From: a virus
IMG/VR virus record: IMGVR_UViG_3300003690_000024
Coordinates: 1-64,000 of that record
DNA: 64,000 nucleotides
Direction: 5' to 3' (one strand)
The notes beneath the pieces were generated by a model, which saw only the letters and a program-made list of their open reading frames with translations, was not told the origin of the DNA and searched no databases. This document shows, one piece after another, positions 4,928-12,645 of this stretch. A program made the translations under genes and the position numbers. Positions within the stretch are counted from its first letter, which is position 1; the number at the start of each line of letters is the position of its first letter.

Positions 4928-6052
4928 ATGTATAAATGTATCAATAATACTATCGGGAATGTTTATCACCTTGAGCAAATAGTAGATAATTTCTTTCCCT
5001 ATTCTCAAAAAAAGCTAGGGTTCGACAAAGACGTTACCATTATTTTTCAAAGCGATGAAGAGAATGCTTCAAAAGTGCTTGGTAAAACAGCACACTATGA
5101 CCCCACCAATCACGAAGTGATGTTATATATAGATAATCGCCACCCCAAAGATATTCTACGGTCACTATCTCATGAATTAGTCCACCATGCGCAGAATTGT
5201 CGAGGCGATTTTACTGGGGACTCAGCTACTTATGATGGATATGCGCAAAAGAATCCCCATCTTCGAAAAATGGAAAGAGAAGCATATACGAAAGGTAATT
5301 TGATCTTTAGAGATTTTGAAGACCTAATTAAGACAGGAAAAATTAACATCGAGATTGATTTCTCGGACTCAGGAGAACCAGAGATGTCGTTAAAAGAGTG
5401 GAAGAATAATGAAATCAACAAGAAGTTGATGAAGAAGTGGGGACTTCTTAAGGAAGAAAGAGGCCCATCTTCAGACCAGCCCGGCAAAAGTCACCGGGGA
5501 GAATCCTGCGCTGAAGCACATCCCGAAGAGACTGCTGAAGCCGGCGGCGATATCGCCGAGGGCCACCGGGCATGGATGGATCGCGGCGGCAACGGCGAAG
5601 ATGAATTAGAAGAAAGCGGCCTGTATCGCGACGACGACGAGGGCGCGTGGGGTCCTACCCGTCGTCATGATGATCCTATTCCTGTAGTGGGCGACGACGA
5701 CCCCGATATTGGCGCGTGGTCGCGAGAAAAAGACCCGGCGGAGGATCCGGAGCATCTGGATCCGTCGGGGCGCATGCGCTTAGATTACGAGCGGGATCCG
5801 GTCCATTTTAAGGGATGGGGCGGCGCGAGTCGAGGTATGAAGGGCCCGGAAGTTCCCGGCTTCGATGAACCTGAGCCCAAGACCTGGGATCGGCGCCCCG
5901 ATCGCGCTGCTAGCGAAGAAGAGCACGGTGACTGGAAAGAACGAAAGCGTGCAGCTTTCGCCAAGCAGTTCAAAGAGGGCAAAATCTCTGTAAAAGAAGT
6001 AAAAGAAATTACTCGACGTATTATCGAGCGTATTAAAAAGGAAGGTAAATAA
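4928..6052 (+). CDS. Zinc metallopeptidase with long acidic tail
   Basis: A 374-aa protein. Residues 1-150 form a gluzincin-like peptidase: SHELVHHAQN gives the HExxH zinc site (His82, Glu83, His86), and MEREAYTKGN about 35 residues later can give the third ligand Glu. After about residue 150 comes KKLMKKWGLLKEERG, which contains L-K-E before Glu, the same hydrophobic-x-Glu triplet that ends the N-terminal tags. Residues about 185-345 are Asp/Glu/Gly-rich and probably disordered, coded by a GC-rich stretch, and a basic helix closes the protein. It may process virion proteins or be a packaged protease. It is not a classical serine-type prohead protease. Confidence 0.75.
   Translation: MYKCINNTIGNVYHLEQIVDNFFPYSQKKLGFDKDVTIIFQSDEENASKVLGKTAHYDPTNHEVMLYIDNRHPKDILRSLSHELVHHAQNCRGDFTGDSATYDGYAQKNPHLRKMEREAYTKGNLIFRDFEDLIKTGKINIEIDFSDSGEPEMSLKEWKNNEINKKLMKKWGLLKEERGPSSDQPGKSHRGESCAEAHPEETAEAGGDIAEGHRAWMDRGGNGEDELEESGLYRDDDEGAWGPTRRHDDPIPVVGDDDPDIGAWSREKDPAEDPEHLDPSGRMRLDYERDPVHFKGWGGASRGMKGPEVPGFDEPEPKTWDRRPDRAASEEEHGDWKERKRAAFAKQFKEGKISVKEVKEITRRIIERIKKEGK
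5500..5940 (+). other. GC-rich, acidic-repeat-coding stretch within the metallopeptidase gene
   Basis: Base composition jumps here relative to both flanks. The codons favour GAC, GGC, CGC and CCG, and GGATCC occurs three times between about 5750 and 5810. The frame stays open and encodes an Asp/Glu/Gly/Arg-rich linker. It looks like an inserted or expanded low-complexity segment. Confidence 0.6.
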
Positions 6053-9530: not shown

Positions 9531-9890
9531 ATGAAACCACGGAAGTCAGAATCCCAGGGTTTTTGCAACGATTTATCATTCTCACAAAAGCTGAGAGATT
9601 TAGGAAAATCTAACGAAGCATTCGAAGTGATGCTTTCTGCACTAACTCTTGAGGAAATTATAGGTCTTAAACTAGAGTGTTCTAGTCGACTGACTAATGG
9701 AAAGCTATATGGTTTTAATTTGTGGTCAAATATAATTAATATTGTTAAGGAAGCGCTGTATAATGCAGTTATTACTGTGGCACATACCAACAAAGAGGCA
9801 GCCAGGATACTAGGTATTAATGACCAGACCTTTAAAACACTTAAGAGAAAATATAAGATAAGAGAAGAATACGACATTGACTTAGAATAG
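9531..9890 (+). CDS. Fis-type helix-turn-helix protein
   Basis: A 119-aa protein directly abutting the upstream stop. The C-terminal part (about 83-110) reads as a Fis-family HTH: TNKEAARILGINDQTFKTLKRKY, with the typical N-x-x-x-A-A-x-x-L-G-I core. The N-terminal part is helical and unrecognised. A DNA-binding regulator or architectural protein is likely. It immediately precedes the small structured RNA at 9922. Confidence 0.65.
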   Translation: MKPRKSESQGFCNDLSFSQKLRDLGKSNEAFEVMLSALTLEEIIGLKLECSSRLTNGKLYGFNLWSNIINIVKEALYNAVITVAHTNKEAARILGINDQTFKTLKRKYKIREEYDIDLE

Positions 9891-9921: not shown

Positions 9922-10003
9922 GGGGGTGGTTTGGGTTTCGACGGGGATTAAAGCCTGCAAGGGCAATCTTCGGACCGCGGTTCGATTCCGCGCACCTCCA
10001 CCA
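9922..10003 (+). ncRNA. Miniature tmRNA-like RNA: tRNA-like domain without mRNA-like domain
   Basis: An 82-nt RNA gene with an encoded CCA. The acceptor pairs 9922-9928 with 9993-9999 and has a G3:U70 pair, the alanine identity element, with discriminator A10000. The T arm (9976-9980 with 9988-9992, loop TTCGATT) is complete. Instead of a D stem it has the tmRNA 5' signature ggguuucgacgggg (9933-9946), and just before the T arm cuucggac (9968-9975), like the 3' part of bacterial tmRNA. Between these, GATT 9946-9949 pairs with AATC 9965-9968 and GCC 9953-9955 with GGC 9962-9964, closing a 6-nt loop. Thus the helix 2 analogue ends in a hairpin where a tmRNA has its tag ORF and pseudoknots. There is no anticodon arm. 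It should be chargeable by AlaRS. Confidence 0.8.
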
Positions 10004-10017
10004 ATTAAATTTTTTAG

Positions 10018-10046
10018 TTGACATATACAACTATATGTTATATTAT
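10018..10046 (+). promoter_or_regulatory. Sigma70-type promoter
   Basis: TTGACA at 10018-10023 is followed after exactly 17 nt by TATTAT at 10041-10046, in an AT-rich intergenic stretch. Transcription would start near 10053, only a few bases before the lipoprotein ATG at 10060, so the leader would be very short. It separates the exported-protein pair from the RNA gene upstream. Confidence 0.65.
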
Positions 10047-10059
10047 AATTATTATAGAG

Positions 10060-10575
10060 ATGTCAAAATTATTAATAGTATTATTACTACTATATTCTTG
10101 TAACAATCAACTGACAGAAGAGGATGTACGTCAAGAGGAATACGGCGAATTATATGCCACCATGAATTGCTGGTGGAGTAGTCAGCCCAATCTATCACCA
10201 GCCCTCTTTTGGTGTACCGAAACTCTTGATACCGAACTAATTTCCGGATATGTTAGCTTAGCTATTCTAGAAGACCTAGATGGGGAAGAAATGTTTTCCA
10301 TTTGTGGTAAAAATGTAACGCTTAATTCAGGAGTTAGCATATACGACAATATTATCGCATTAATGACTGAAGATACTTATGACTGCCTTCAATCTTATGA
10401 AAGAAATCTTGGAAACGAGTTTGACTGGATCTGGGATAACCCAACGAACACGCTGCAGCTTATATGGCGCCCTACAAACGACGTCGACAAGGTTCTTACG
10501 TTATTTATACCCGAAAAGGTAGATTCTCCACGTGTTTTGGGCTCTGTTTATTACAAAACTGGATATTTTGACTAA
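10060..10575 (+). CDS. Predicted exported lipoprotein
   Basis: A 171-aa protein when started at ATG 10060. An in-frame upstream ATG would overlap the promoter and hide the signal. MSKLLIVLLLLYSCNNQ is a short lipoprotein-like signal with Cys14 after LLYS, a loose lipobox. The mature part is acidic with several Cys (CWW, WCTET, SICGK, DCLQ), suggesting disulfides outside the cytoplasm. I do not recognise the fold. It overlaps no gene and is followed 7 nt later by an exported metalloprotease, so the two probably work together at the host envelope. Confidence 0.65.
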   Translation: MSKLLIVLLLLYSCNNQLTEEDVRQEEYGELYATMNCWWSSQPNLSPALFWCTETLDTELISGYVSLAILEDLDGEEMFSICGKNVTLNSGVSIYDNIIALMTEDTYDCLQSYERNLGNEFDWIWDNPTNTLQLIWRPTNDVDKVLTLFIPEKVDSPRVLGSVYYKTGYFD

Positions 10576-11167: not shown

Positions 11168-11571
11168 GCGATTTAGTAGTCTGTGTGGACATGGCAAAAA
11201 AAGATGCCAAGGGACATACTTGCAGATTTATTGGATTAGTACTTGACAAATCTATCACAGTCTATAAAATACAAGTAGTAGATACTGGTAGAGAGCTCTA
11301 TTGGCCTATGACAGCAACTTATCTATGGGAAATAGATGTTGGTCACCAAGAAGGACCACCATGGAAAATAGTTGGAAGATTTCCAACTTTTGAGAAAGCA
11401 AATTTGAAAAGAGAGAAGCTCCTCGAAGGAGCAGAGCTGCAGGTAAAGATACATTATCAGGGATCTCCCAATAATCGTTATTTTGCAGTTAAAGCTCGAC
11501 TCGATCCCGCAATTGCATTAGCGGAGGTCCTAGCAGCAAAGCGCGACGAGAAGAAGCGCCGAAAGAAGTGA
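11116..11571 (+). CDS. Small basic protein with SH3-like N-terminal part
   Basis: A 151-aa ORF. The first about 15 residues overlap the protease end by 52 nt, so the true start may be later (ATG 11191), though that would lose the well-formed VSVGDLVV strand. VGDLVV, FIGLVLDKS, YKIQVVDTGRELYWP form a small beta-barrel-like pattern seen in uncharacterised phage proteins. The C-terminus is strongly basic (KRDEKKRRKK), suggesting RNA or DNA contact. The stop overlaps the GTG start of a methyltransferase. Confidence 0.6.
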   Translation: MDDERLGQRRLRKQVSVGDLVVCVDMAKKDAKGHTCRFIGLVLDKSITVYKIQVVDTGRELYWPMTATYLWEIDVGHQEGPPWKIVGRFPTFEKANLKREKLLEGAELQVKIHYQGSPNNRYFAVKARLDPAIALAEVLAAKRDEKKRRKK

Positions 11572-12092
11572 GGGAGGAGACGCGGCGCCGACGTTATGAT
11601 AGCAAGATCAAAACTGCTAAGAAATATCCGATTAGCCTTTGTGCTATCAATTTTCGTATTGATAGCAACCTTGGCTATCTTATTCGAAGTATTGCTTGCT
11701 TTGGTGCTGCACGGCTTTATGTGGTGGGCCACCTTCCTGATCGGAGCCAACTAAAAGCACCATCCGGGAGTTTGGTAGATTATGTGGAAATTATACAATT
11801 TGCGACACCACGAGATTTCGTGGACTATGCAAAAAGTAAAGACATTCAAATCGTCTCTGCAGAGTTGGTGGAAGGCGCTAGATCCGTGGCTTCTTATACT
11901 TTCAATTTCGCTAGCGATCTTTGCTTGGTGGTGGGTAACGAAGAATCCGGAGTTCCCTCTGAAATAATTTCCAATTCTGATGTAGTATATATAGAAATGC
12001 CGGGAGTTGGCTATTGTTTAAATACCGCACAAACAGCGAATATTTTATTATACGAAGCCGTCAACCAATATAATGGCAGCCAGTGTAGATAA
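11568..12092 (+). CDS. SpoU/TrmH-family RNA 2'-O-methyltransferase
   Basis: A 174-aa protein from GTG 11568 (GTGA overlap). It has the three SPOUT motifs: INFRIDSNLGYLIRSIACFG (motif 1, with Asn and Arg), CLVVGNEESGVPSE (motif 2) and VYIEMPGVGYCLNTAQTANI (motif 3, with Asn for the knotted SAM site). It is the length of a catalytic core without a substrate-recognition domain. Expected to methylate ribose in tRNA or rRNA with SAM. The nearby tRNA-Thr and tmRNA-like RNA are candidate targets. Confidence 0.9.
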   Translation: MREETRRRRYDSKIKTAKKYPISLCAINFRIDSNLGYLIRSIACFGAARLYVVGHLPDRSQLKAPSGSLVDYVEIIQFATPRDFVDYAKSKDIQIVSAELVEGARSVASYTFNFASDLCLVVGNEESGVPSEIISNSDVVYIEMPGVGYCLNTAQTANILLYEAVNQYNGSQCR

Positions 12093-12569: not shown

Positions 12570-12645
12570 GCCGGTATAGCTCAGCTGGCAGAGCAGTTGT
12601 CTTGTAAACAACAGGTCCGCGGTTCGAATCCGTGTGCCGGCACCA
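12570..12645 (+). tRNA. tRNA-Thr (anticodon UGU)
   Basis: A 76-nt cloverleaf with encoded CCA. Acceptor 12570-12576 pairs with 12635-12641 (one U-G pair), discriminator A12642. The D arm reads GCTC-AGCTGGCA-GAGC, the anticodon loop is CTTGTAA giving UGU (reads ACA), and the T arm has GGTTCGAATC. All conserved bases are in place, so it should be functional. It lies between two protein genes in the same direction. Confidence 0.95.

Follow-up and report, generated by a model that had tools for sequence, protein, structure and literature searches.

Among phage tmRNAs, the form reduced to the tRNA-like domain (TLD) appears in the literature consulted as a single curiosity, that of mycobacteriophage DS6A, which is listed as TLD only (Hudson et al. 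2014, PMC4131195). The DS6A TLD-only tmRNA inhibits endogenous tmRNA in E. coli (Mao et al. 2009, as relayed in PMC4131195 and PMC11915505), and PMC4131195 reports inhibition by a DS6A-like molecule to be independent of charging and suggests that it binds SmpB. Tag-less tmRNAs also occur in jakobid and oomycete mitochondria and in some plastids (tmRNA database 2025, PMC11915505), and the mitochondrial ones, found together with an imported SmpB, are believed to assist with incomplete mRNAs (PMC11915505). In vitro, an engineered TLD fragment combined with SmpB yields polyalanine even when no mRNA is present (Shimizu and Ueda 2006, as relayed in PMC3929946). A full-length phage tmRNA, that of Wildcat, is the most highly expressed lytic gene of its phage (PMC7474061). 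A literature search with most subscription journals and bioRxiv outside its scope found no census of TLD-only phage tmRNAs.

Here we analyse such a gene in a 64,000-nt stretch of DNA (the window), positions 1 to 64,000 of the 95,396-bp IMG/VR virus record IMGVR_UViG_3300003690_000024. An earlier note on the window, made from its letters alone, had described a tmRNA stripped to its TLD and knew of no such form among phages; the latter point does not stand, given the earlier publication of the DS6A form (PMC4131195, PMC11915505) and of tag-less organellar forms. Genes for baseplate wedge, portal, primase and SbcC-like proteins in the record mark the virus as a tailed phage, and its tail is probably contractile, judging from these genes. 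A search of INPHARED with 1 kb around the RNA gene returned no match.

Layout and locus of the RNA gene

With cmscan, positions 9922-10003 (+) of the window match the tmRNA model RF00023 from end to end (model positions 1-374 of 374) at 73.4 bits and an E value of 7.6e-28, where the score cut-off is 47 bits, and the same match is returned when the whole 95,396-bp record is scanned. The gene is 82 nt long and sits in an intergenic gap, and the central 306 model positions are represented by 13 nt. The Infernal check proposed in the earlier note thus comes out positive, and its central observation, a TLD-only gene with both tmRNA ends, is confirmed. A second model, R1, built from 26 aligned sequences with the window and its close family left out, scores the window RNA at 66 bits (E 2.5e-14). 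The features of the locus are as follows.

9531..9890 (+): conserved upstream gene, 119 aa, with a weak helix-turn-helix match (HTH_28, below cut-off)
9922..10003 (+): TLD-only tmRNA gene, 82 nt (RF00023 73.4 bits, R1 66 bits, same gap in nine relatives)
9922..9928 (+): acceptor stem, 5' strand GGGGGUG, G3 at 9924, partner 9993-9999
9929..9941 (+): D-loop-like segment GUUUGGGUUUCGA, the tmRNA 5' signature
9942..9949 (+): connector helix P2, 5' strand, partner 9965-9972; the helix covaries
9950..9964 (+): AAA bulge (9950-9952), then apical stem GCC/GGC with loop UGCAAG (9953-9964), standing where the tag frame and pseudoknots would be
9965..9975 (+): P2 3' strand and the conserved GGAC
9976..9992 (+): T arm CGCGG UUCGAUU CCGCG, 5/5 pairs; the stem covaries in the family
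9993..10003 (+): acceptor stem, 3' strand CACCUCC (U70 at 9997), followed by ACCA
10018..10575 (+): conserved downstream gene with no assigned function; the tool's start is TTG, and the ATG at 10060 is more likely

The TLD is complete in the window RNA, with a D-loop signature, a fully paired acceptor stem (7/7) that includes G3 (9924):U70 (9997), a fully paired T stem (5/5) and an encoded A73 and CCA. The G3:U70 pair and CCA end named in the earlier note are hence present as described. Pseudoknots PK1-PK4 are absent, as are a tag frame and its resume and stop codons, for which the connector is too short; the RNA has neither an anticodon arm nor a template, again as the note had it. Its "short helix with a 6-nt loop", said to replace the tag region, is right about the loop and slightly understates the helix, given that the connector consists of an 8-bp helix (9942-9949/9965-9972), an AAA bulge and a 3-bp apical stem below the 6-nt loop. 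This layout, in which the two TLD ends stand in normal order and a short closed connector without a tag frame links them, is also that of the DS6A type. The thermodynamic stability of the window RNA is modest (z -1.73) and in itself unremarkable, so the case rests on homology and covariation.

Two other identities were rejected. The model of permuted two-piece tmRNA (RF04321) reaches 25 bits against a cut-off of 47, and the gene order is 5'-3' and not permuted. A tRNA is contradicted by the missing D arm and 7-nt anticodon loop (the apical loop of the family model has 4 nt on a 3-bp stem), and ARAGORN makes no call at 9922-10003. The sole tRNA called in the window is a tRNA-Thr (tgt) at 12570-12645. 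A SpoU-family RNA methylase gene lies at 11568-12092, 1.6 kb downstream of the RNA, and no homologue of it was seen at the corresponding place in the relatives.

Within the reach of their sequence, nine IMG/VR contigs from related marine phages (L002, L007, L049, L058, L060, L065, L076, L104 and L115) have this RNA in the corresponding gap, flanked by homologues of ORF 9531-9890 and ORF 10018-10575 with 49-85% protein identity. Homologues of the upstream ORF (65-85% identity) adjoin the RNA in 8/9, the piece of L065 stopping just past the RNA, and homologues of the downstream ORF (49-69%) lie on its other side in seven. The earlier note had proposed looking for compensatory changes in such homologues, and within this close family both sides have changed at three pairs. 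It had also considered that relatives might carry a full tmRNA at this locus, with a lone deletion here; none of the nine (0/9) has a full tmRNA there, and RF00023 finds no full-length tmRNA in the relatives' records searched (all of the nine except L002 and L060).

Breadth of the class and its alanine identity

A pattern scan of IMG/VR for the two tmRNA ends spaced 8-38 nt apart gives at least 119 loci, and 118 of the 119 listed are real: the acceptor and T stems pair in 113/119, and five more score 49-72 bits with the family model, which leaves L034 as the only failure. Filtering the matches listed gives 80 distinct sequences, the window's included. The search pattern fixes UUCGAC, GGAC and some of the T-arm motifs, which are thus no evidence in themselves, whereas both acceptor strands and the discriminator were left unconstrained. 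A GG in the spacer, likewise not demanded by the pattern, is present in 79/80 of the distinct sequences among the matches listed.

Covariation was measured on an alignment of 26 gap-free sequences. Standard pairs fill 95.2% of the cells in the alignment, compared with 70.9% after shuffling and at most 49.7% in slid versions; relatedness is left uncontrolled by the shuffles and is controlled by the slid versions. Two-sided changes occur at 16/24 pairs, and the covariation score is 0.622 versus 0.167. Strong covariation is seen in the acceptor stem, connector helix, apical stem and T stem. In one and the same search, R1 gives at least 47 bits to the pattern-derived members, 19 to a full-length tmRNA-like gene and about 30 or less to tRNAs and other matches; elsewhere it gives up to 38 bits to some full or permuted tmRNAs and to diverged forms. 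tRNA genes lie within 1 kb of 15/113 listed loci, against 7.6% at random positions, a modest association. One contig (L091) holds two different TLD-only genes, at 1562-1638 and 5108-5183. Judged by sequence, TLD-only tmRNAs turn out to be a large, conserved class across many phages.

The class includes seven named phages. In the Streptomyces phages pSt2308, LuckySocke, GiJojo, Alone3 and Shaeky the RNA lies amid tRNA genes, in Stenotrophomonas virus Jojan60 it adjoins them, and in Pontimonas phage phiPsal1 (31-kb genome) it is just upstream of the capsid gene. None of the seven is annotated as tmRNA (0/7), and hypothetical-protein calls overlap two. A pattern scan of genome contigs yields almost exclusively chance matches and one clear member, L214. 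It lies on QCKN01000003.1 (130,604 bp; same contig as L008), from the single-cell assembly of Prochlorococcus sp. AG-409-P03. This contig has exactly the length of the IMG/VR record that holds L008, and so is probably a phage genome inside a bacterial assembly. When 449 bacterial genomes were searched with the model at E 1e-8, no TLD-only RNA was found, a weak negative with about 20 candidates scored per genome and no positive control.

Several BLAST matches to TLD 3' ends are full or permuted tmRNAs and were left uncounted. Permuted tmRNAs that carry no annotation at the match occur in Xanthomonas phage Rb1, Synechococcus phages S-CRM01 and S-CAM1, Pseudomonas phage PA_L9, Ruegeria phage RpAliso and Stenotrophomonas phage DLP_6 (L244, L245, L253, L258, L259, L260). 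Shorter or more diverged RNAs were seen in Vibrio phage D239 (L254:1471-1541, 38 bits with R1) and Microbacterium phage Skylord (L256:1438-1530, 37 bits); both have a full acceptor stem with G3:U70 and an altered D-loop signature, and are possible further variants.

The acceptor end carries the clearest sign of constraint. Among the matches listed, all 80 distinct sequences have G1:C72, G3:U70, G7:C66 and A73, and 79 of them have G2:C71, while acceptor pairs 4, 5 and 6 vary freely, with five or six pair types each. G3:U70 is the main AlaRS identity element in tmRNA (PMC3985003). Since the search pattern forced neither G3:U70 nor A73, their invariance points to selection, and selection for charging with alanine is the natural reading of these sequences. 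The connector shows nothing comparable: among the matches listed, GCA occurs in 57/80, with an in-frame stop before the T arm in only 18/80, and no conserved tag frame was found in the 80 distinct sequences. A stop codon or a GCA resume codon in the connector was therefore rejected as a functional signal.

SmpB (PF01668) was detected in 0/44 phage records, some of which may be fragments, against 10/14 control genomes; host SmpB would hence be needed. One contig of 123,582 bp (L017, G011) carries both a full-length tmRNA-like gene (L248:1089-1480, 94.2 bits) and a TLD-only gene (L249:987-1068), which shows that the short form does not simply replace a lost long one. The tag predicted for the full-length gene is unusual.

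Candidate action on ribosome rescue

For an RNA of this form, conserved with its alanine identity set, with no conserved tag frame and no phage SmpB detected, we propose the following action. The product would be a stand-alone tmRNA TLD that host AlaRS charges with alanine through G3:U70. Host SmpB would supply the missing anticodon arm, and host EF-Tu would deliver the complex to ribosomes stalled at the ends of broken mRNAs. There the RNA would compete with host tmRNA for SmpB and for the stalled ribosomes, and the nascent chain would move onto the RNA's own alanine. As the RNA holds no tag template, normal trans-translation, that is ssrA tagging and proteolysis, would be blocked during infection. 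We consider the arguments for and against this entry and block of tagging to be about evenly balanced. For the window RNA itself we infer charging, ribosome entry, inhibition and a benefit to the phage; for related molecules, published work describes that they are charged and bind SmpB, that a TLD fragment makes polyalanine without a template, and that the DS6A form inhibits tmRNA. The interpretation in the earlier note, which offered addition of a single Ala, competition for SmpB or AlaRS, or a block of rescue, is partly supported, and these are reasonable candidate functions.

Two observations count against an inhibitor. Inhibition by a similar molecule that is independent of charging leaves the invariant G3:U70 unexplained, and on the contig with both gene forms a plain inhibitor would strike the phage's own tmRNA. 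The main rival is a productive and not an inhibitory action. Here the nascent chain would pass to the charged RNA and SmpB and be extended, free of any template, by one or more alanines, while another factor would recycle the ribosome; the phage would thereby obtain rescue with neither tagging nor proteolysis. An invariant alanine identity demands a charged RNA, polyalanine is made without mRNA by a TLD fragment and SmpB (as relayed in PMC3929946), mitochondrial tag-less tmRNAs, accompanied by an imported SmpB, are believed to assist with incomplete mRNAs (PMC11915505), and coexistence with a full-length tmRNA in one phage fits a separate role. On the other hand, inhibition is the one function so far reported for a TLD-only RNA from a phage, as relayed in later papers, and release would require a further factor. 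We regard this tag-less rescue as unlikely, if a serious contender. It is tentatively conceivable, and rather doubtful, that the class as a whole acts charged, bringing template-free alanine addition and tag-less release to non-stop ribosomes with host SmpB in place of tagging and proteolysis, and that its members are not mere SmpB sponges.

A passive sponge would strip SmpB from host tmRNA, with charging irrelevant. PMC4131195 makes this suggestion for the DS6A-like molecule, which is inhibitory whether chargeable or not, and the phage RNA retains the parts of the D loop and T loop that SmpB recognises. The fixed alanine identity argues against it: G3:U70 and A73 in 80/80 among the matches listed, next to freely varying pairs, would be unexpected if charging were immaterial, and we find the sponge improbable.

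Phages often use ssrA as an attachment site, and the gene could be a remnant of such a site, a deletion product or a pseudogene of a full tmRNA gene. A tyrosine integrase is present in 6/33 records, and in two of these it is no more than about 1 kb from the RNA. An ssrA remnant would hold only the 3' end of the gene, beside an integrase. Both gene ends are present in tmRNA order, however, the same form recurs in nine relatives, and the strong covariation already contradicts a remnant; no integrase was found in the 95-kb window record or in 27/33 records, so that an attachment-site origin is not general. We therefore agree with the earlier note, which called a remnant unlikely, and hold it to be very improbable. 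A TLD-only gene at L107:353-434 has an integrase about 560 nt away, and the contig of L082 has one at about 1 kb; in some temperate phages the gene may be close to attP or overlap it. Two-piece tmRNAs are known, and permuted ones occur in several of the phages found, yet a split half joining in trans with a tag-bearing part encoded elsewhere is scarcely credible, because a hairpin of its own closes the connector helix in cis, which leaves no free strand for pairing, the gene order is not permuted, and the window record and the relatives searched hold no second RF00023 match above cut-off.

For the preferred reading, a charged TLD that enters stalled ribosomes and blocks tagging, the invariant alanine identity turns the idea of SmpB titration into a testable question: is charging required? 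Seven members are in named phages with recorded bacterial hosts, which makes deletion and point mutants feasible. Should the class have the breadth that the scans indicate, many phages would interfere with or rewire ribosome rescue through an RNA that current annotation misses.

Comparison with known systems

Compared with one-piece bacterial tmRNA (RF00023), the window RNA shares both TLD ends, G3:U70, A73, the UUCGAC/GGAC signature and the T arm, and differs in having no tag frame, resume codon or pseudoknots (82 nt against a 374-position model). The phage tmRNAs of Melnitz, S-CRM01, Wildcat and Bxz1 (permuted or full-length) are also phage-borne but retain the mRNA-like part with its tag. 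Tag-less tmRNAs of jakobid and oomycete mitochondria and the plastid forms of about 65 bp in Mallomonadaceae have, like the phage form, kept the TLD and lost the mRNA-like region. Some of these organellar RNAs are in two pieces, and their SmpB is nucleus-encoded and imported, whereas the phage form would rely on host SmpB. The TLD fragments engineered for crystals with SmpB and for synthesis of polyalanine have essentially the same design, with the 5' and 3' ends of tmRNA joined through a short closed hairpin; they are man-made, while in the natural phage form P2 covaries and is followed by an A-rich bulge and an apical stem. DS6A is the nearest counterpart by its described layout; it infects mycobacteria, whereas the virus analysed here is an uncultured tailed phage. 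A TLD-only phage tmRNA is thus already known from DS6A, and what is new is how broad the class is and that its alanine identity does not vary.
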